Assembly: GCA_014650475.1 (NCBI GenBank)
Contig: BMVA01000003.1
Span: forward strand, 248,001-312,000
Direction of reading: 5' to 3'
DNA from: Streptomyces albogriseolus
Lineage (GTDB): Bacteria; Actinomycetota; Actinomycetes; Streptomycetales; Streptomycetaceae
Length of the DNA stretch: 64,000 nt
Of the stretch, positions 40,630 through 48,172 are shown one piece after another (the first letter of the stretch is position 1; each line of letters begins with the position of its first letter). Below the pieces are notes generated by a model. That model was given only the letters and a program-made list of their open reading frames with translations. It searched no databases and was not told where the DNA came from. The translations under genes were made by a program, and so were the position numbers.

Positions 40630-41259
40630 ATGCACCAACCACATCAGCACACTCCTGACGACGTGCGTCAGGGGGCCACCATCTCAGCCTCCGACGGAGC
40701 AAGTTGGTGCAAGAGCATTGCTCCCGACGGGAGCAATGCTCTTGCGTCTCCCGCCCCGAGAGCGGCGGGCCCGGAAGCGACCGAGGACGGATCGCAAACC
40801 GGCGGGGAAGAGCTACACGCGAACCACAGCATCGACTGCGCGCGCACCTCTCCGTCGCAGCCCCGCATACAGCAGCGCGAACGCCTGCGCGACGAGAACA
40901 AGCGCCTGCACCAGCCCAGCTGCCGCATGAACGACGCCGAGTACCAACTGCTCGCCCGAGCAGCCGCCACGTGCCACATGAGCATCGCCGGCTTCCTCGC
41001 CCGCTCCGCTCTCGACGCCGCCCACGACCTCGGCCGTACCGCCGCGGACATCGCAGGCGAGCGAGAGATGCTGCACGAGCTGTTCGCGCTGCGGCGCCAC
41101 CTCGGGCAACTCGGCAACAACCTCAACCAGGTCGCCAAGGCGCTGAACTCCGGCGCCGACGCATCGCAGGCAGAGGCGGTCCTCGCCACCGTCCAGCGCG
41201 CCGCCAAGCGCGTCGACGCCTTCACCCAGCACCACTTGGACAACAGGACAGCCGGGTGA
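40630..41259 (+). CDS. mobC: MobC-type mobilisation accessory protein
   Basis: The 209-aa frame carries the MobC domain in its second half: RMNDAEYQLLARAAATCHMS, FLARSALDAAHDL, then LFALRRHLGQLGNNLNQVAK, the ribbon-helix-helix and conserved helix that load the relaxase at oriT. The first 90 residues are not conserved and include the 17-bp inverted repeat, so the true start may lie downstream. Its stop overlaps the relaxase start (GTGA). Confidence 0.8.
   Translation: MHQPHQHTPDDVRQGATISASDGASWCKSIAPDGSNALASPAPRAAGPEATEDGSQTGGEELHANHSIDCARTSPSQPRIQQRERLRDENKRLHQPSCRMNDAEYQLLARAAATCHMSIAGFLARSALDAAHDLGRTAADIAGEREMLHELFALRRHLGQLGNNLNQVAKALNSGADASQAEAVLATVQRAAKRVDAFTQHHLDNRTAG
40709..40745. repeat. 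17-bp-arm inverted repeat, candidate oriT
   Basis: GCAAGAGCATTGCTCCC and its exact complement are separated by only GAC. Perfect arms of this length next to mobC-relaxase are typical of relaxase recognition hairpins; it could equally regulate mobC. Confidence 0.6.
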
Positions 41260-42998
41260 TCCCCCGCGTCCACGCAAGAGGCACGCGCACCATCGGCCTG
41301 CTCCACTACTTGTACGGGCCCGGCACGCACGAAGAGCACACAGACTCGCACCTGGTGGCCGCCTGGGACAGCCTCGCCCCTGATCCCGGGCGCGACTCCG
41401 ATGCCACGTACGGCGATCTCCAGCGGCTGCTCGACCAGCCGGTCAACGCCCTGCCGAAGAACCGCCGGCCCGCCGAGCACGTATGGCATCTGTCGGTACG
41501 CGCTGCTCCTGAGGACCCGGTCCTGTCGGACGAGCAGTGGGGCGAGATTGCGCGCCGAATGGTCGCCGCCACCGGCATCGCTCCCGACGGTGACGACGCC
41601 GCCTGCCGCTGGGCAGCGATTCGGCACGCCGACGACCACATTCACATCATCGCCACCGTCGTACGAGAGGACGGCCGCCAAGCCCGTATCCGCCAGGACG
41701 GTAAGCGTTCCCAAGCGGAAGCCCGCGTGATCGAGATCGACTACGGGTTGCGCCGCCTCGCCACCGGCGATGGCACCGCAGCCCGTCGTCCGACCAGCGC
41801 CGAACGGCACAAGGCCCAGCGGGAAGGCCGGGAGCGCACAGCGCGGGAGGAACTTCGTGAGTCCGTGCGCCGGGCAGTGGCCGGTGCTGCCTCGACGGAC
41901 GAGTTTTTCGACCGCCTGGCCGCCGCCGGTCTGCTGATCCGCAAGCGTCTCGCGCCCTCCGGCGATCTCCTCGGGTACAAGGTCGCCCTCCCTGATGACC
42001 GGAACAAGGACGGCGAGCCGGTCTTCTACTCAGGCTCCAAGCTGGCGCCCGACCTGTCCCTGCCCCGTGTCCGCGAACGCTGGAGCCGGCCCTCGGAGAC
42101 GCCCACCGCCATCGACGGTTCATGGCCGGATCAGCCTGCACTGCCGCCCGTGACAGGCCCCGCGTTCGCGCGGCGGCGGGCCGCGGCTGCCACGTGGCAG
42201 GCCCTGCTGGTGATCGACCACGGCGACGACGGCACCGCAGCAGCCCAGATCGCCGCGACCGGAGAGGTCCTGGACGCGCTGGCCAAGACCTCCGCCGCCC
42301 ACACCCGGGCCGAACTGCGCGAGGCAGCCTCCGCGTTCGAGCGCGCGAGCCGCTCCCACGTGAAGGCGGTACGCGGGCACGACCGGGGCCTGCGACAAGC
42401 CGCCCGTGATCTCGTCCACAGCGGGCCGGTCCTGGGCCGGGGCGAAGACGGCGCCTGCACGGCCATGCTCATCGACATGGCCGTCTTCGTCGTGACCGCC
42501 GCGGCAAAGTGGCACGCCAGGAAGCATCACACCCAGCAGGCCACAGCAGCCCAGCAAGCCGCCGAGCACCTCCGCGCCGCCTACCAGGCCGCCTCAGTCC
42601 AGCCCATGACCGCACTGAGCCAGCGAGGCCGGCGGCTGACTCAACGTGTTCGGCAACAGCAGGCGAACCTGCTCCACCAAGTGCTGCCGGAGCTGGCCGA
42701 CCAGATCCAAGCCGAGTCCGGTTGGCCCGCCTTGGCCGCCACACTGGACGACGCCCGGAGGGCCGGCCATGACCCGGCCGCCCTGCTGACCGAAGCCACG
42801 GCACGGCGCGAACTACGCTCCGCCGGATCCATGAGCGACGTCCTCGTCTGGCGCCTGCGCCGCAGCGCTCACCTGCCCGCACTACCCGACGACCGCAACG
42901 CCACGGCCCTCCGAGCCAACCGGCACACCTCGCACTCGGCGCCCACCACGCAGTCGGTGCCCGGCCCGACAGGGAATGATCCCCGCCGTGGGCGCTGA
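41256..42998 (+). CDS. Relaxase (MobA/Relaxase family)
   Basis: The 580-aa protein nicks oriT and pilots the strand during mobilisation. The histidine triad region reads AIRHADDHIHIIATVVREDG (about residues 125-144) and the N-terminus has GLLHYLYGPGTHEEHTDSHL, typical of actinobacterial Relaxase-domain proteins. The remaining 400 residues are helical and charged without a helicase motif. GTG at 41256 overlaps the mobC stop. With no coupling ATPase in the element, transfer would depend on another conjugative element. Confidence 0.88.
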   Translation: MIPRVHARGTRTIGLLHYLYGPGTHEEHTDSHLVAAWDSLAPDPGRDSDATYGDLQRLLDQPVNALPKNRRPAEHVWHLSVRAAPEDPVLSDEQWGEIARRMVAATGIAPDGDDAACRWAAIRHADDHIHIIATVVREDGRQARIRQDGKRSQAEARVIEIDYGLRRLATGDGTAARRPTSAERHKAQREGRERTAREELRESVRRAVAGAASTDEFFDRLAAAGLLIRKRLAPSGDLLGYKVALPDDRNKDGEPVFYSGSKLAPDLSLPRVRERWSRPSETPTAIDGSWPDQPALPPVTGPAFARRRAAAATWQALLVIDHGDDGTAAAQIAATGEVLDALAKTSAAHTRAELREAASAFERASRSHVKAVRGHDRGLRQAARDLVHSGPVLGRGEDGACTAMLIDMAVFVVTAAAKWHARKHHTQQATAAQQAAEHLRAAYQAASVQPMTALSQRGRRLTQRVRQQQANLLHQVLPELADQIQAESGWPALAATLDDARRAGHDPAALLTEATARRELRSAGSMSDVLVWRLRRSAHLPALPDDRNATALRANRHTSHSAPTTQSVPGPTGNDPRRGR

Positions 42999-43012: not shown

Positions 43013-43759
43013 TCACCTGTACCGGGCCACGGTGTACGCGGTAGGCCCGTGCAAGGTGCCTGCTCCGATCCCGTCGGTGATCTGGAGGACGTCGAAGCCG
43101 GCGAGCGTCGCGTACAGCTCCAGCTCACGCGGCCCGAGAACACGCCGACGGATCACGTCCCGTGTTTCTTCACCAGAGTTGAACACCCACTGCCGACGCA
43201 TGGTGTTCATCTGGGTCCGCAGGTCCCACTCATAGCTGATGGTCACGTGGGCCGTGCCCGATCCGGTCTCGACCTCTGCTTCCTGCGGCTCATCACGCTC
43301 GATCGGCGCTACGGAACAGCAGAGTACAAGGAGCGTCCCGGGACGGGCGTGCGCTGCGAAGGTCCGGAAGACCGCCTGGATGTCCTGGTTGTCGTGCACG
43401 TAGGAGAGGGAGTTTCCCAGGCAGGTCAGCACGTCAGCGGTATGGTCGAGTCGGATGGTGCGCATGTCGCCGAGGCGGATGTCGAGGCCGGGCCGTGTGC
43501 GGCGGGCGTAGTCGACCAGGCCGGGCTGGAACTCGACACCGATGCAGTCGAAGTGGCGGGCCAGCAGCTCCAGGTCTCTCCCGGTTCCGCAGCCCAGATC
43601 CAGCAGAGTGCGGGCGTCCGGGCGGTGCCGATGGACGAGCGCCCGACAGCTGCTCGCGCTGGTGCTGTCAGACTGCACTCTGTCGTACAGGGCGGGGTCT
43701 CGGTAGAAGAGGTTGGAGGCTGCCAGGTGTCTGGATTCGGCGATGTCCAGGCCGCTCAT
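43013..43759 (-). CDS. Class I SAM-dependent methyltransferase in RiPP-like locus
   Basis: The 248-aa enzyme shows motif I LLDLGCGTGRDLELL (about 52-66), an acidic post-I strand (CIGVEFQPG) and motif LTCLGNSLSYVHD, the pattern of small-molecule N/O-methyltransferases with a typical C-terminal GFDVLQITDG. ATG at 43759 overlaps the stop of the asparagine-synthetase-like gene (ATGA), so both are one transcription unit behind the putative precursor peptide. It likely methylates the peptide product, for example at a carboxylate, amide or His; the target is inferred. Confidence 0.8.
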   Translation of the reverse strand: MSGLDIAESRHLAASNLFYRDPALYDRVQSDSTSASSCRALVHRHRPDARTLLDLGCGTGRDLELLARHFDCIGVEFQPGLVDYARRTRPGLDIRLGDMRTIRLDHTADVLTCLGNSLSYVHDNQDIQAVFRTFAAHARPGTLLVLCCSVAPIERDEPQEAEVETGSGTAHVTISYEWDLRTQMNTMRRQWVFNSGEETRDVIRRRVLGPRELELYATLAGFDVLQITDGIGAGTLHGPTAYTVARYR

Positions 43760-45228
43760 GCGAGGCTCCGCAGTCCGACTTCCAGGGCGAGTGTGTCGCA
43801 CAGCAGGTCGGGCACCGCGGGAGTCCGCTCGGCGTGGTCGCGGGCCCGGCTGAGGGCGTCGGCATCAACGTAGCCGAGATCGATCAGCAGGGAATCGGTC
43901 AGCATCTCGTCCAGGAGAGGGAGCCCGTAGGTGCGCAGTCCCGACTCCATGACCGCGAGGAAGTTCTCCGGCTCGGTCGGAGCCGCGACGGACTCGGGCA
44001 GACCCGTCCGCCGAAGTCGGTCGCGGAACATCCTCTTGTCGCGTTTGTACTCGTACGGCAGCTGTTCCATGAAGCGGATCATCCGGGGGTGGACGAGCGG
44101 GGCCACCGGCCAGATACCGAGTCTCACGTACGCCGGATTGTGCAGGCCGAATGCCATGAGCGTCGGCACAGGCAGGACCGGGATGGGAGCGAGGTTCTCG
44201 TTCACCTGGGCCAGCGCCGCGGTGGCCTTGTCGCCGAGCCATGGCACCGGCTCCATCGGCGGGAGTCCGGCTTCCGTACGCGAGTGGTGGGCGTTGACCT
44301 CGTCCCCGCCGCCACCTGTGAAGATCAGCTCGCAGCCGTGTGCGGCCACGTGCCCGCGCACGACGTCGAACGCTTCCTGGTAGAAGGCGCCTGCCGGATC
44401 GTGCGGCCGTCTGCGTTCCCTCACGCCACCAGGCACGAAGGGCGGGTGCTGCATCGCCGGCACGGCGGTGTCCCGCAACCCCAGGTGATCCACCAGTGAG
44501 CGGCGCCGGTCTCGCTGGAGCTGGCCGATCCGGCCGCCCATGAGCAGCCCCATGGTGTGCACGGAGCCGAATCCGGCCGCGACGGCGGACAGTGCCACGT
44601 TGGCCGAGTCCGCTCCGCCTGACACCTCGACGCCGACGCGGCCGGCCGTCGATCGCCACTCGGCCACGGCCTCGGTGAGCAGTGCGTCGAACACGGTCAC
44701 GGGGTCCACTCCGCTACGGAGGCTGCGGGGTTCCAGGACGTGTTGGGCGGGCTCGGGGTAGAGGATGGAGAGCCCTGCCGGCGTGAAGACCGCGGTAGCG
44801 CGTTCGGTGAGTCGGTACACGCCGTCGAAGAGGGTGTCGGTGCTGTAGCGGTGTTGGCGGCTCAAGGTGCGGGCGACCGCTCGTGGATTGAGCTGGTCAG
44901 GTCGCAGGTGCGGCCGGAGGTCGACGATGTCCCAGGACCCGAAGATCTCGTCGCCGACAGCTGTGAGGTACAGCGGGACGGTACCCAGCATTCCCGCCGA
45001 GACCTGGATCTCGTCGGGCCGGACGAGCAGCGACGTGTAGTCGGCTTCACCGTCTCTGTCTTCCCGCACCAGCACACAGACGCTCGATCCGTCGCCCGGT
45101 ATGAGGTCCGCGACCAGGACGGTTGCGTGAGCGGGTCGGATCCAGCTCTCCCCCTTGACCCAGCGGTCTGTGTCCCATCGCCAGCCGGCGTCCCGGGTGT
45201 CTGCCAGTCGCACACGAAACGAGAGCAC
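43756..45228 (-). CDS. Asparagine-synthetase-like ATP-dependent amidotransferase lacking the N-terminal Cys
   Basis: The 490-aa protein has an AsnB-type architecture: an N-terminal region lacking catalytic Cys2 (residue 2 is Leu) and therefore unable to hydrolyse glutamine, and a synthetase domain with the pyrophosphate loop SGGADS (203-208) and a second FTGGGGDE motif. Homologs of this kind form amide bonds by carboxylate adenylation, as in lasso-peptide cyclases. The GTG start at 45228 follows AGGAGGGGAG. Set between a 38-aa precursor gene and a methyltransferase, it is the probable macrocyclase or amide-forming enzyme of a RiPP pathway. It is about 100 residues shorter than lasso cyclases. 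Confidence 0.82.
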   Translation of the reverse strand: MLSFRVRLADTRDAGWRWDTDRWVKGESWIRPAHATVLVADLIPGDGSSVCVLVREDRDGEADYTSLLVRPDEIQVSAGMLGTVPLYLTAVGDEIFGSWDIVDLRPHLRPDQLNPRAVARTLSRQHRYSTDTLFDGVYRLTERATAVFTPAGLSILYPEPAQHVLEPRSLRSGVDPVTVFDALLTEAVAEWRSTAGRVGVEVSGGADSANVALSAVAAGFGSVHTMGLLMGGRIGQLQRDRRRSLVDHLGLRDTAVPAMQHPPFVPGGVRERRRPHDPAGAFYQEAFDVVRGHVAAHGCELIFTGGGGDEVNAHHSRTEAGLPPMEPVPWLGDKATAALAQVNENLAPIPVLPVPTLMAFGLHNPAYVRLGIWPVAPLVHPRMIRFMEQLPYEYKRDKRMFRDRLRRTGLPESVAAPTEPENFLAVMESGLRTYGLPLLDEMLTDSLLIDLGYVDADALSRARDHAERTPAVPDLLCDTLALEVGLRSLA

Positions 45229-45249: not shown

Positions 45250-45284
45250 GCGGCGGAGCAGGACGCCAGGCCCTGCTCCGCCGC
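45250..45284 (-). promoter_or_regulatory. Hairpin between precursor and modifying-enzyme genes
   Basis: GCGGCGGAGCAGG and its exact complement form a 13-bp stem with a 9-nt loop in the 69-nt gap between the precursor stop and the synthetase start. Such attenuators commonly keep precursor mRNA in excess over enzyme mRNA in RiPP operons. Confidence 0.7.
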
Positions 45285-45297
45285 GTTCACCGGCCGG

Positions 45298-45414
45298 TCA
45301 GCTGCAGTGGTCGCCGTTGTTGTCGCCGCCGCCGGGCATCTTGTCGAGCAGCGCCGCGTCCATGCTGGGGACGCCGGTGACCAGGTCTCCCGTGAAGAGT
45401 TCGTCGATGATCAT
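45298..45414 (-). CDS. Putative RiPP precursor peptide (38 aa)
   Basis: This short frame starts ATG with an excellent ribosome site (GGAGGAAGG, 9 bases upstream). It begins MIIDELFTGDLVTGVPSMD, an acidic, helical leader-like segment with a repeated L-x-TG pattern, and ends MPGGGDNNGDHCS, a small Gly/Asp/Asn-rich core with a single Cys. It is immediately upstream of the asparagine-synthetase-like gene with a hairpin between. The core allows an 8-membered ring between Gly1 and Asp8 if cleaved before GGGD, leaving a 3-residue tail, too short for a threaded lasso. No RRE (B1) or leader peptidase (B2) gene was found nearby. Chemistry is inference. Confidence 0.75.
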   Translation of the reverse strand: MIIDELFTGDLVTGVPSMDAALLDKMPGGGDNNGDHCS

Positions 45415-45528
45415 GGCTGTTCCTTCCTCCTGCGGAGTGGGTGGACGGGCCCCGCGAGCTGCGGAGCCCGGACCCGTCCCTGCCGCCGGCGTTCACGGCG
45501 AACTGGACGGGAGCTCGTTGGGTGGGGG

Positions 45529-45647: not shown

Positions 45648-45773
45648 TCAGTCGGGGGCGAGGTGCCACAGAGCCCAGGCGACCGGGGTAGTAGAGACGA
45701 TGATCAGGGCCGACGGCAGCCACTGCCGCCAGCCATAGGGGCGACCTCGCCTGCTGCGCCGCCGGCTCACCAT
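45648..45773 (-). CDS. Tiny membrane protein, 41 aa
   Basis: ATG at 45773 overlaps the stop of the preceding tiny gene by 7 nt. The product has a basic N-terminus (VSRRRSRRGRPYGWRQW) and one membrane helix (LPSALIIVSTTPVAWALW), an N-in topology. It is the last of four overlapping small genes. Family unknown. The overlap chain and TM pattern are the only support. Confidence 0.5.
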   Translation of the reverse strand: MVSRRRSRRGRPYGWRQWLPSALIIVSTTPVAWALWHLAPD

Positions 45774-45859
45774 CCCCGGGACACCGCCACCACGATCGAT
45801 CCCCCGAGCACCATGACGCACGCGATGTACATGACCTGAGCCGTGACCTGGCCTTTCAC
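45767..45859 (-). CDS. Tiny membrane peptide, 30 aa
   Basis: GTG at 45859 overlaps the stop of the upstream gene (GTGA), and the stop overlaps the next start. The peptide is almost entirely a hydrophobic helix (MYIACVMVLGGSIVVAVSRG). A start at the internal ATG (45832) would give 21 residues. It may be a holin-like or sensor peptide, or simply a coupled leader; function unknown. Confidence 0.4.
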   Translation of the reverse strand: MKGQVTAQVMYIACVMVLGGSIVVAVSRGW

Positions 45860-46005
45860 CGCGCGCCCTGGTCCTTGCCACACTGTTGCCCCACGGTCGG
45901 CGCGAGGCCAGGTCGGCCGACGAAGACGCGTCGTGCTCGTTCCTGGTCGGGCAGGGTGGCGCCGATCCGGCACACCGGCGGCTCGGCCGGGGTTTGGTCA
46001 GCCAT
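45856..46005 (-). CDS. Small Cys-containing protein, 49 aa
   Basis: ATG at 46005 overlaps the end of the 123-aa gene by 8 nt. The peptide (MADQTPAEPPVCRIGATLPD at the N-terminus, two Cys in all) is hydrophilic with no TM. It ends in an overlap with the 30-aa membrane peptide. I do not recognise it. Consecutive overlaps argue that it is translated. Confidence 0.45.
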   Translation of the reverse strand: MADQTPAEPPVCRIGATLPDQERARRVFVGRPGLAPTVGQQCGKDQGAR

Positions 46006-46369
46006 CGTTCTGGTCCTTCTTCCGGGTCGCGCGGTAGACGTCGGCGAAGCGTCTGGTCAGCGCGCCGACGTCGCGCATGTACTGGTAGGCGATGAAGTGG
46101 GGGGACTGCTCCGTCGGCCGACGCGTCAGGTCGAGGACCCGGTAGCCCTCCCGGAACAGCGCCTGGACGGCCGGGTCCTCGTCAAAGCCGAGTTCCTCGG
46201 CCATCAGCACTCTCAGGTGGCTGACCAGGTCTCGGGTCGTGGCGTCGATCACCGGGCGCTCGGGCATCGACAGCCGGATGGCCAGCGCTGTCTCCACGGC
46301 CTCGTCGACCGCCTCCAGGACAATCGACGCTCCAGCCACCTCGGACGACGTGACGCTTCCTGCTGCCAT
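45998..46369 (-). CDS. Hypothetical cytoplasmic protein, 123 aa
   Basis: ATG at 46369 has GGAGAAGGGG upstream. The protein is acidic and helical: ASIVLEAVDEAVETALAIRL, then LRVLMAEELGFDEDPAVQ and a basic C-terminus (TRRFADVYRATRKKDQ). No family is recognised. It is divergent from the Xre/TPR regulator, with a palindromic site between, and heads the chain of small genes that leads to the RiPP-like locus. It may be part of that locus or separate. Confidence 0.7.
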   Translation of the reverse strand: MAAGSVTSSEVAGASIVLEAVDEAVETALAIRLSMPERPVIDATTRDLVSHLRVLMAEELGFDEDPAVQALFREGYRVLDLTRRPTEQSPHFIAYQYMRDVGALTRRFADVYRATRKKDQNDG

Positions 46370-46395
46370 GTCCGCACCCCTTCTCCGGCCTCCAC

Positions 46396-46415
46396 CGTTG
46401 TCGTTTCTGACAACG
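46396..46415. promoter_or_regulatory. Palindromic operator candidate
   Basis: CGTTGTC and GACAACG flank a 6-nt spacer midway between the divergent starts at 46369 and 46536, a natural place for the Xre/TPR regulator to bind. Confidence 0.5.
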
Positions 46416-46535
46416 TCCAGAAAAGCGGCTCGCGTTGGCGCAGACCACGGCATCCACGGGCCAGTCCTGGGACACTTCTGGGACAGCCCGGTGCCGTCGG
46501 GTTAGACGCGGGTTGATGCGTGGAAAGGGGGCGGC

Positions 46536-47792
46536 ATGGGGCTTGCGGAGAGGCGCAGGGCGCTGGGCTACAGTCAGGAAGAGCTCGCGCACGCCCTCGG
46601 CGTGGACCGACGAACCGTCGGCCGCTGGGAAGGCCGCACCACCACGCCGCAGCCGCCGCTGAGACCACGGCTGGCCGAGCTGCTCCACCTCGACCTTGAC
46701 GAACTCGACGCGTTGGTGGGACAGCCACGAGCAGCCCGACCGGACTCGGCAGGGCCGCCGCCTCGCGACCACCACGGCTCAGGGGACCTCGACGACATGA
46801 TCCGACGCCAGTTCCTGCGCGCCATCACCGTCACCAGTGCCCTGGTGGCCCTACCTCCCGACGAGGGCGCAGCCCTCGCGGAGGGCGCGCTGCGCGGGAT
46901 GTCCGACGATTTCCTGCGCATGAACGGGCACCTGTGGCAGGTCTACCAACTCGCCCGCGCCAAGCGTTCCGTCTACCCGGTCGTCCGCGACCAGCTCACC
47001 GCCCTGAACGAGACCCTCGGCGGACGGCCCGAGGTCGAAGCACAGGCCCTGTGCGGCGCGGCCGGTGACCTCTTCCAGCTCGCCGGAGAACTGGCCTTCG
47101 ACGGCAACCGCTACACCGACGCCGCCGCCTCCTACACGCTCGCCGCCTCTGCCAGCCAGGAGGCGAAGTCCTACGACCTGTGGGCGTGTGCCCTCGTCCG
47201 CCACGCCTACGTCGATCTGTACGAACGCCGGTACGCCGACGCGGTCGGCGCGCTGTCGGCCGCAGAGAAGGTGGCAAGGCGCGGGGACGGTTCCCTGTCC
47301 ACCCGCTACTGGGTCGCTGCCGTCCAGGCCGAGGCGTACGCCGGCCTCGGCGACCTCTCCGCCTGCGAACGCGCCTTGGACGAGGCGGAGAAGGTGACCG
47401 GCCTGAGCGGGGCGGCCCACAACGGTGGCTGGCTGCGTTTCGACGGCTCCCGCCTCGCAGAAGAGCGTGGCGCGCGCTACCTCCAGCTCGGTCGGCTCGA
47501 CCTCGCCGAGAAGGCACTCAGCAGCGCGCTCAGCCAGGACATCCTCGCTTCCGGCCAGTCCTTCCGCCGACGCGGTGCGGTCCTGACCGACCTCGCGGCC
47601 GTCGGCGCCCGGCGCCAGGACCCCGACCAAGTAATCGCCTACGGCGGGGAGGCGCTGCGACTCGCCCGCACGACCTCCTCGGGTTACGTCGCCCGTAAGC
47701 TTCTGGGGTTACGAACCGACCTCGGCCCGCTCACCCGCGACGCTCGTGTGGCGGAGCTGGGCGCCGAGATCGACGCACTGTGCACGACGTGA
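46536..47792 (+). CDS. Xre-family regulator with C-terminal TPR-like domain
   Basis: The 418-aa protein has a Cro/C1 helix-turn-helix at residues 5-60 (RRALGYSQEELAHALGVDRR) and a long helical repeat region (about 120-418; for example DAAASYTLAASASQEAKSYD, AYAGLGDLSACERALDEAEK) of the TPR type that in such regulators binds peptides or small signals. Proteins of this design are abundant in Streptomyces and often control adjacent divergent genes, so it is the likely switch of the small-gene/RiPP-like locus. It is followed 14 nt later by the 121-aa repeat protein. Confidence 0.88.
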   Translation: MGLAERRRALGYSQEELAHALGVDRRTVGRWEGRTTTPQPPLRPRLAELLHLDLDELDALVGQPRAARPDSAGPPPRDHHGSGDLDDMIRRQFLRAITVTSALVALPPDEGAALAEGALRGMSDDFLRMNGHLWQVYQLARAKRSVYPVVRDQLTALNETLGGRPEVEAQALCGAAGDLFQLAGELAFDGNRYTDAAASYTLAASASQEAKSYDLWACALVRHAYVDLYERRYADAVGALSAAEKVARRGDGSLSTRYWVAAVQAEAYAGLGDLSACERALDEAEKVTGLSGAAHNGGWLRFDGSRLAEERGARYLQLGRLDLAEKALSSALSQDILASGQSFRRRGAVLTDLAAVGARRQDPDQVIAYGGEALRLARTTSSGYVARKLLGLRTDLGPLTRDARVAELGAEIDALCTT

Positions 47793-47806
47793 CGAGAGGG
47801 GAAGGC

Positions 47807-48172
47807 ATGTCGCAGTCCGAGGGCGCCCGACTGTTCCGCGAGGCTTGGATCACCGGAGTGCGCAAGCACTTCCCCGGCGAGCCCAAGCCCGGTTACGTCA
47901 CCCCCTGGGAAGAGACACCCGAGTGGGAGCGCCAGGCCGCCGGCGCCGTCCACGACCAGGTGCGCCAGTTCCTCGACCTCAGCGACCGCCACGCCTCCCG
48001 CCTCACCCGCGAGCAGAAGAGCCGCTTTGTCGCCACCTGCTGGACCGCGCAGATGTACAAGCACTTCGAGAACCCGAAGCCGGGCTATGTCGCCGACTGG
48101 GCTGCCCTGCCCGACTGGCAGAAGGAGACCGACGCGGACATCTTCGAGGCGATCGAGGACGCTCTGAAGTAG
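47807..48172 (+). CDS. Hypothetical protein with two internal KPGYV repeats
   Basis: The 121-aa protein contains two copies of a 25-30-residue unit: HFPGEPKPGYVTPWEETPEW near residue 22 and HFENPKPGYVADWAALPDWQ near residue 85, separated by a helical stretch. The ATG at 47807 has GAGGGGAAGG 2-3 bases before it. It is coupled to the Xre/TPR regulator, so it may be its partner or modulator. No enzyme motif is visible and the family is unknown to me. Confidence 0.7.
   Translation: MSQSEGARLFREAWITGVRKHFPGEPKPGYVTPWEETPEWERQAAGAVHDQVRQFLDLSDRHASRLTREQKSRFVATCWTAQMYKHFENPKPGYVADWAALPDWQKETDADIFEAIEDALK

Follow-up and report, generated by a model that had tools for sequence, protein, structure and literature searches.

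What does an asparagine synthetase-like enzyme act on when the gene immediately before it encodes a peptide of only 38 residues? Such a pair lies within the window, by which we mean the whole 64,000-nucleotide stretch of Streptomyces albogriseolus DNA that was analyzed. An earlier note on this DNA described an unrecognized RiPP locus in which a precursor-like open reading frame (ORF) with a strong ribosome site precedes an AsnB-like enzyme and a methyltransferase coupled to it by ATGA, and reading of the sequence confirmed that arrangement. The ORF (45298 to 45414, minus strand) encodes the 38-amino-acid product MIIDELFTGDLVTGVPSMDAALLDKMPGGGDNNGDHCS, as had been observed, and its ribosome-binding site AGGAGGAAGGA (45421 to 45431, minus strand) ends 6 nucleotides before the ATG. 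Residues 1 to 24 form a leader-like part containing ELFTGD...GVP (45343 to 45414, minus strand), and residues 25 to 38 form the core, KMPGGGDNNGDHCS (45301 to 45342, minus strand). The core contains K25 (codon 45340 to 45342) and D31 (codon 45322 to 45324), the putative partners of an isopeptide bond, as well as GDHC (residues 34 to 37; 45304 to 45315), a motif that co-occurs with a methyltransferase, all on the minus strand. The next ORF after the precursor encodes a stand-alone AsnB-like enzyme of 490 amino acids with a GTG start (43756 to 45228, minus strand). It is followed by a methyltransferase of 248 amino acids (43013 to 43759, minus strand), counted from its ATG, which overlaps with the stop codon of the enzyme as ATGA; a longer methyltransferase frame opens at GTG 43801. 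The window precursor belonged to no known family in Pfam or NCBIfam, and none of four precursors compared with NCBIfam matched a family there.

Conservation of the precursor and its neighborhood

A scan of one genome per species with the window enzyme gave 47 loci, all of them in Streptomyces. At an E value of 1e-20 the enzyme was matched in 41 of 392 Streptomyces genomes, 22 of which had at least 61% identity over most of the enzyme, and the host genome gave a single match to the window enzyme at an E value of 0.001. The full-length enzymes fell into two clades, clade A (77 to 100% identical to the window enzyme) and clade B (59 to 64%). The core was present in all 37 loci in which the enzyme was intact and 250 nucleotides or more of upstream sequence were available, and it was part of a complete ORF in 35 of them; L006 and L030 contained the core and lacked a start codon in frame. 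Among nine loci with a broken or partial enzyme, one of which (L043) ends at a contig edge, the core was found in two (L037 and L044), and in the 47th locus (L028) the enzyme lies at a contig edge with no upstream room. The earlier note had staked its reading on a conserved small ORF at homologous loci, and this check came out in its favor.

Precursor residues 24 to 37 (DKMPGGGDNNGDHC) were identical in 36 of 36 aligned rows, which had been preselected for the KMPGGGDNNGD register and which comprised 27 distinct DNA sequences. Synonymous changes within this segment were confined to P27, G28, G29, and G34. Four loci fell outside this selection: L037 lacks one Asn, L020 has a longer leader, and L006 and L030 are without an in-frame start. 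Variation among the Streptomyces precursors is found in the leader and at the C-terminal end, which reads S, SK, or K. Because residues 24 to 37 are identical despite the divergence between clade A and clade B enzymes, and because the changes are synonymous, we conclude that the peptide itself is under selection. Moreover, a conserved small gene with a leader and a core lies beside a modifying enzyme, which is the general plan of a RiPP locus.

Several copies of the cassette are decaying. The peptide of Streptomyces cellulosae JCM 4462 (L037) is one Asn short and its enzyme frame is broken, and the enzyme frame is shortened or partial in L038, L039, L042, and L046 to L048. Streptomyces sp. SM11 (L020) has a leader in which GDLIT is tandemly repeated and a core that is unchanged.

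Other genes accompany the cassette in part of the set. An ORF upstream of the precursor (45998 to 46453, minus strand), with a weak DUF6415 likeness below the cutoff, is conserved in clade A, as is a 130-amino-acid protein of no assigned family (47780 to 48172, plus strand; 11 of 47 loci) that is encoded downstream of a divergent regulator discussed below. Between the regulator and the precursor lies a small ORF with a C-terminal hydrophobic stretch (45648 to 45881, minus strand), and hydrophobic-ended small ORFs occur in this gap in part of clade A and most of clade B. By a loose pattern, a similar ORF occupies the corresponding position in 28 of the 47 named loci (29 with L028, which was excluded as an edge artifact), and ORFs of this type might encode a membrane peptide of the pathway. 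A relaxase-like protein (PF03432; window positions 40704 to 42998) faces the cassette, and similar relaxases lie near cassettes of the KK type described below, with 62% identity in L089 and 43% in L086. Relaxases near cassettes hint at carriage by mobile elements. Phage carriage was rejected, as there were 0 matches in 50,697 phage records and alignment A1 of the enzyme family found 0 relatives in viral contigs. Downstream gene family 3 was set aside because it lies on the opposite strand, inside the methyltransferase gene.

Weaker relatives of the enzyme (30 to 42% identity) from the genus and from other actinobacteria gave 28 loci (L078 to L096 and L109 to L117), and a small ORF of the same plan was found upstream in 24 of them, including L085, where the core is intact and the leader is out of its frame. 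The plan consists of a leader with an LFTG- or VFAG-like motif, followed in many cases some residues later by VP or VQ, and then a short acidic core. A precursor was not seen in L090, L096, and L117, which are partial enzyme matches, or in L114, where the upstream stretch is masked. Plasmid records contained further homologs with an upstream small ORF in Rhizobium, Mesorhizobium, Bradyrhizobium, and Xanthomonas sacchari. These records label the enzyme asparagine synthase-related and annotate part of the small ORFs as hypothetical proteins, and the actinobacterial leader is not common to the proteobacterial precursors.

The AsnB-like enzyme and its distance from lasso cyclases

The 490-amino-acid enzyme matched PF00733 (Asn_synthase) at 30.1 bits against a cutoff of 21, and PF00733 was its only Pfam match at an E value of 0.1. 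Cys 2 is the glutaminase residue in AsnB, and position 2 of the window enzyme is not Cys, which indicates that the glutaminase residue is absent. Scores against more specific models fell far below their cutoffs: 23 bits for TIGR01536 (asparagine synthetase; cutoff, 267.1), which places the enzyme outside that family, and 24.6 and 18.9 bits for the lasso cyclase models NF033535 (cutoff, 525) and NF033561 (cutoff, 300). Both ATP-site motifs are retained as SGGADS (residues 203 to 208; 44605 to 44622, minus strand) and GGGGDE (residues 305 to 310; 44299 to 44316, minus strand). The patterns [ST]GGxDS and GxGGDE occurred together in 39 of 41 family enzymes, with the former missing by pattern from L110 and the latter from L124, and the core residues of both motifs were invariant in 23 of 23 rows of alignment A1, the numbering of which is the full-length numbering minus one.

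A tree of the synthetase half, which has long branches and an outgroup of one lasso cyclase and three AsnB proteins, placed 36 family members on one side and the three AsnB proteins and the lasso cyclase of the host on the other (100/99). The methyltransferase-bearing clade, including the window enzyme, formed one group in the same tree (100/100), which omits five actinobacterial rows, L079, L087, L093, and L120 (partial) and L110 (no SGGxDS match). Beta-lactam synthetase was the only find in a profile search of the PDB at an E value of 0.01 (27.9 bits over part of the protein), and a PDB search with the enzyme as a single sequence gave no match. The AlphaFold model of the enzyme was poor (mean pLDDT, 58.9), and its fold ranking is of supporting use only, with beta-lactam synthetase first, followed by the hydroxyamidotransferase TsnB9, carbapenam synthetase, and asparagine synthetases, at TM-scores of 0.3 to 0.4.

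Model-based searches for this family can miss members, as a PF00733 search of the host genome returned five loci and missed the window enzyme. A search of the phylum with alignment A1 at an E value of 1e-60 matched 2 of 396 genomes, namely the host and one congener; because relatives found otherwise score lower, this result reveals little about how widespread the family is. An NF033535 search of 98 genomes of the class at 1e-60 returned nothing and was not used as evidence.

The earlier note had seen no lasso B1 or B2 partners, and this was borne out. PF13471 (B2) and PF05402 (PqqD-like RRE) had no match near the cassette in 20 of 20 cassette-bearing genomes, although some of the cassettes lie on short contigs that put far neighbors outside view and such searches can miss members, as the PF00733 search did. 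Matches anywhere in the genome were found in nine and eleven of the 20, respectively, and the nearest on the contig of a cassette was about 200 kb away, in the host (G000) and in G104. The host has a lasso cluster near 90 kb (L140; G000:C3, about 89986 to 92640) with a precursor, cyclase, B1, and B2, and the core of that precursor, CLGIGSCNDFAGCGYAIVCFW, resembles the siamycin type. Since the host cluster was found by the B1 and B2 searches, these searches detect a lasso cluster when one is present. Lasso leaders have Thr at the penultimate position as a rule, and the title of the paper that states this names an exception, Ile (PMC10368454). With a core start at Gly28, the corresponding residue of the window precursor, residue 26, is Met. 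We rejected lasso membership because the cyclase scores are far below cutoff, the enzyme belongs to a separate clade, and no B1 or B2 was found near the cassette in the 20 genomes searched.

A fixed Lys-Asp spacing and the predicted ring

Precursors from across the family share one spacing. A Lys and an Asp six residues apart were found in 40 of 40 precursors and in all of the 14 groups into which we sorted them, and the window pair is K25 and D31; the next-best Lys-Asp spacing occurred in 22 of 40. When one representative per group was shuffled 20,000 times, the best spacing was found in 14 groups 0 times, with a maximum of 10. The precursors of L130 to L132 had been picked among several ORFs as the nearest to the enzyme, and for that reason the rule, K-x5-D, was fixed in writing before new loci were fetched. 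A small ORF with K-x5-D lay within 450 nucleotides upstream in 17 of 18 new loci, and the sole exception, L187, has a truncated enzyme and is on the same contig as L038. A strict form of the rule, restricted to the nearest small ORF, held in 13 of the 18; in four more, a different small ORF ends closer to the estimated enzyme start. The motif was rare in other small ORFs (1 of 27 within 900 nucleotides and 0 of 15 within 450 nucleotides). There was redundancy among the new loci, as L188 is the contig of L035, the L144 precursor is that of L132, and the L178 precursor is that of L177; 14 new distinct precursors were left after removal of repeats, and all had the motif.

When 25 representatives were aligned on the motif, K0 and D+6 were shared by 25 of 25 by construction, and the next best shared position was a Gly at K+3, in 16 of 25. 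In the actinobacterial cores that were read, a second Asp follows the first at a distance of 4, 5, or 6 residues, and this Asp is absent from most proteobacterial cores. A ring made from two side chains would require a fixed distance with five variable residues between, as seen. The earlier note had offered either a macrolactam between Gly1 and Asp8 of the core, counted from Gly28, or another amide linkage. Neither that Gly nor the distance to the second Asp is conserved, and we therefore rejected the Gly1-Asp8 ring as the main reading in favor of the family-wide K25/D31-type spacing. The looser clause came nearer the mark, with the bond itself being a prediction.

The type of core also tracked the tailoring gene. 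When genes up to 3.5 kb from the enzyme were considered, GD[HY]C cores had a methyltransferase in 43 of 43 loci, KK cores had a GNAT acetyltransferase in 26 of 26, and DQG cores had an ABC exporter in 8 of 9 (none in L182), in a set that holds duplicate contigs and for core types that were defined after the sequences were seen. Ten loci with a tailoring gene and without a readable precursor (seven methyltransferase and three GNAT) were left untyped. A GNAT gene was present in L109, which has a single Lys, too. A phosphotransferase was found in four alphaproteobacterial loci (L122, L131, L141, and L142) and is also annotated in the L130 record, and five Rhizobium rhi-type loci had no methyltransferase, GNAT, ABC exporter, or phosphotransferase within 3.5 kb. 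L185 and L186, which come from another family within the order, are of the methyltransferase type, with K[SA]PGDxDGEDKGD[HY]CS cores and methyltransferases 39 to 40% identical to that of the window. It is plausible that the GD[HY]C tail is the place of the methyl group and that the additional Lys in KK cores serves as an acetylation site. The window methyltransferase matched Methyltransf_25/11/23/12/31 and MetW in Pfam and no PIMT family. Its closest solved relatives were CalS10 (70.3 bits), sugar N,N-dimethyltransferases (about 62 bits), and the cypemycin methyltransferase (50.7 bits), and its match to the daptide methyltransferase model was weak (36.7 bits; cutoff, 175). The precursor conservation and the agreement between core and tailoring gene support the earlier description of a RiPP-like locus with an AsnB-type enzyme and a methyltransferase.

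AsnB adenylates the beta-carboxylate of Asp, AsnB-type enzymes use ammonia, and lasso systems need a protease to free the N terminus. We propose that the 38-amino-acid peptide would be the substrate of a two-enzyme RiPP pathway. The leader (ELFTGDxxTGVP) would probably be bound by the AsnB-like enzyme itself, such that a separate RRE protein would be unneeded. The enzyme, with ATP, would adenylate the side-chain carboxylate of Asp31, and the side-chain amine of Lys25 would then attack in place of ammonia or a freed N terminus. The predicted product is a seven-residue isopeptide ring, K25-M-P-G-G-G-D31, formed with a loss of 18 Da, and because Lys would supply the amine, no leader protease would be needed before ring closure. 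The coupled methyltransferase would then probably methylate this product, for a gain of 14 or 28 Da, with the GDHC tail or its vicinity as a possible site. Lasso cyclases are described as adenylating a core Asp or Glu that is then attacked by the N terminus (PMC13352647). Activation of Asp31 and attack by Lys25 would together explain the missing protease and the fixed spacing. We infer from sequence, with a probability of roughly two in three, that these loci represent a class of RiPPs whose Lys-Asp isopeptide ring (K25-D31 in the window) is made by a stand-alone AsnB-type enzyme without a prior RRE or protease step.

Other products of the same enzyme can be imagined. If a host protease cut before GGGDNNGDHCS, the freed Gly28 could be joined to Asp35, and both the membership of the enzyme in the PF00733 superfamily, shared with lasso cyclases, and the Gly at K+3 in 16 representatives would suit such a ring. 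In the KPQESSD and KAAETSD cores, however, that position is Glu, and the proteobacterial cores that were read have no Gly there; moreover, the distance from the Gly to the second Asp varies, the tail would be three residues only, no B1 or B2 was found near the cassette in 20 genomes, the lasso cyclase score is 24.6 against a cutoff of 525, and the K-x5-D rule would be left unexplained. We consider a ring from a freed N terminus very unlikely. The enzyme might instead close a different ring, from Lys25 to Asp35 or to the C terminus, or two rings in cores with two Asp residues, and here a second Asp within six residues in actinobacterial cores and a GDHC that is unchanged in 36 of 36 rows would both make sense. 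That second Asp lies at a varying distance and is missing from most proteobacterial cores, and we find these arrangements quite improbable.

The recurring Asp fits adenylation, and AsnB-type use of ammonia suggests that an outside amine (ammonia, an amino acid, or a small amine) could be joined to activated Asp31 while Lys25 only positions the substrate. Such a reaction is unlikely in our view, as position 2 of the enzyme lacks the Cys with which glutamine would be hydrolyzed and as the reaction gives no account of a Lys exactly six residues before the Asp with five varying residues between. The Lys and Asp could also be needed for recognition instead of bonding. Lastly, a short ORF that lies just upstream, as that of an attenuator peptide would, and has a core that barely varies might not belong to a RiPP pathway and might instead encode an unmodified product, either a regulatory leader or a small protein that partners with the enzyme. 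Conservation is in amino acids and not in DNA, however, with synonymous changes, the leader/core plan occurs in two phyla with changing loops, and the core type tracks the tailoring genes, all of which leaves an unmodified peptide hardly credible. We retain the Lys25-Asp31 ring as the preferred reading.

Regulators, signaling, and known systems

The gene divergent from the cassette (46536 to 47792, plus strand) encodes a 418-amino-acid HTH-TPR regulator of the NsdA family (NF053720, 155.1 bits; cutoff, 75). NsdA reportedly represses development and antibiotics in Streptomyces coelicolor. A homolog of the window regulator was found in 10 of the 47 named loci and another regulator family in 28 of 47, one of which (L010) has it as an additional copy on the far side. 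A different NsdA-family protein occupies the same divergent position in clade B (450.9 bits in the tested member, L015), as one also does in L082 (DQG type; 387.3 bits) and L080 (302.1 bits); the regulators of L086 and L095 belong to other families. The NsdA family has 9 to 34 members per genome in 20 genomes, which makes adjacency by chance unlikely, although one ancestral linkage per clade would suffice. Elsewhere in the host genome (G000:C38:7197-11332), an NsdA-family regulator neighbors a protein of a different kind that matches PF00733 weakly (39.8 bits). The scant variation of the cassette peptide, together with the NsdA-family TPR regulator encoded divergently from the cassette, suggests that the product is a signal or regulatory molecule and not a diversifying antibiotic, a role that we infer.

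On Rhizobium plasmids, an AHL synthase gene is followed by a 52-amino-acid ORF with the core IKGGKPGDMDKLDV and by a gene for an AsnB-like member of the enzyme family (ORFs at L127:2655-2813, L128:2515-2673, L129:2475-2633, L133:2481-2639, and L123:4329-4487). In 4 of 5 Rhizobium rhi-type records the peptide gene has the AHL synthase gene on one side and the enzyme on the other, and in the remaining one, L123, the AHL synthase is nearby on the opposite strand with three annotated genes between. nifH lies beyond the cassette in L127 and L133, and the annotated enzyme of Rhizobium johnstonii 3841 (L133) is shorter. The location of the peptide gene beside the AHL synthase gene is no more than suggestive of a signaling link. 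An extended proposal, which could go either way, is that the class spans Actinomycetota and Pseudomonadota, with leader-recognizing stand-alone AsnB-type enzymes that would make a Lys(i)-Asp(i+6) ring and with interchangeable methyltransferase, acetyltransferase, phosphotransferase, and exporter modules. The methyltransferase-type peptide of Streptomyces would then be a signal read by the NsdA-family TPR regulator, and on the symbiosis plasmids of Rhizobium a peptide gene of the same kind would be flanked by the genes for the AHL synthase and the enzyme.

If true, such a class would be missed by RRE-based searches, as neither an RRE nor a leader protease was found, and the K-x5-D rule would provide both an immediate means of finding members and a clear chemical prediction. 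AsnB-type ring closure that is independent of a free N terminus would, if right, be of interest to peptide-ring engineers. Because the near-invariant peptide of Streptomyces adjoins a TPR regulator and its Rhizobium counterpart an AHL synthase, a signaling role can be tested directly. Searches of the open-license literature, with subscription papers outside the scope, found neither the core strings of the precursor nor anything on the Rhizobium version, and titles and the beginnings of abstracts there gave no description of an AsnB-type stand-alone RiPP class. The word "asparagine" is absent from the main text of the decRiPPter paper, and two other papers treat PF00733 or asparagine synthetase domains as lasso cyclase (PMC12710340 and PMC7533575).

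The cassette resembles lasso systems in having a PF00733-superfamily enzyme with an ATP site and without the glutaminase Cys, a small leader/core precursor, and an acidic side chain as the likely acceptor. It differs from them in that no B1 or B2 was found, the enzyme belongs to another clade, the likely donor is a Lys side chain and not the N terminus, and the tail, with three residues after Asp35, is too short to thread. Graspetides are made by ATP-grasp enzymes, whereas the window enzyme matched PF00733 only (Pfam, E value of 0.1). The graspetide corallotide has an enzymatic Lys-Asp isopeptide in KIVAD, with the Lys and Asp four apart, and a ring that made the peptide trypsin resistant (PMC13097080). 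The bond predicted here would likewise join a Lys side chain to an Asp side chain but across six residues rather than four and by a PF00733 enzyme. Aspartimide RiPPs are defined by a PIMT-like methyltransferase (PMC13001092), and the window methyltransferase has no PIMT match. That methyltransferase fell below every NCBIfam cutoff compared, and although CalS10, the sugar N,N-dimethyltransferases, and the cypemycin N-terminal methyltransferase are its closest solved relatives, the neighbors and substrate are different here. The divergent gene of the window is a member of the NsdA-family TPR regulators of Streptomyces. Among the nearest solved structures to the AsnB-like enzyme, by a remote match, are beta-lactam synthetase and carbapenam synthetase, relatives of AsnB that close a ring within one molecule and whose substrates are small molecules and not ribosomal peptides.
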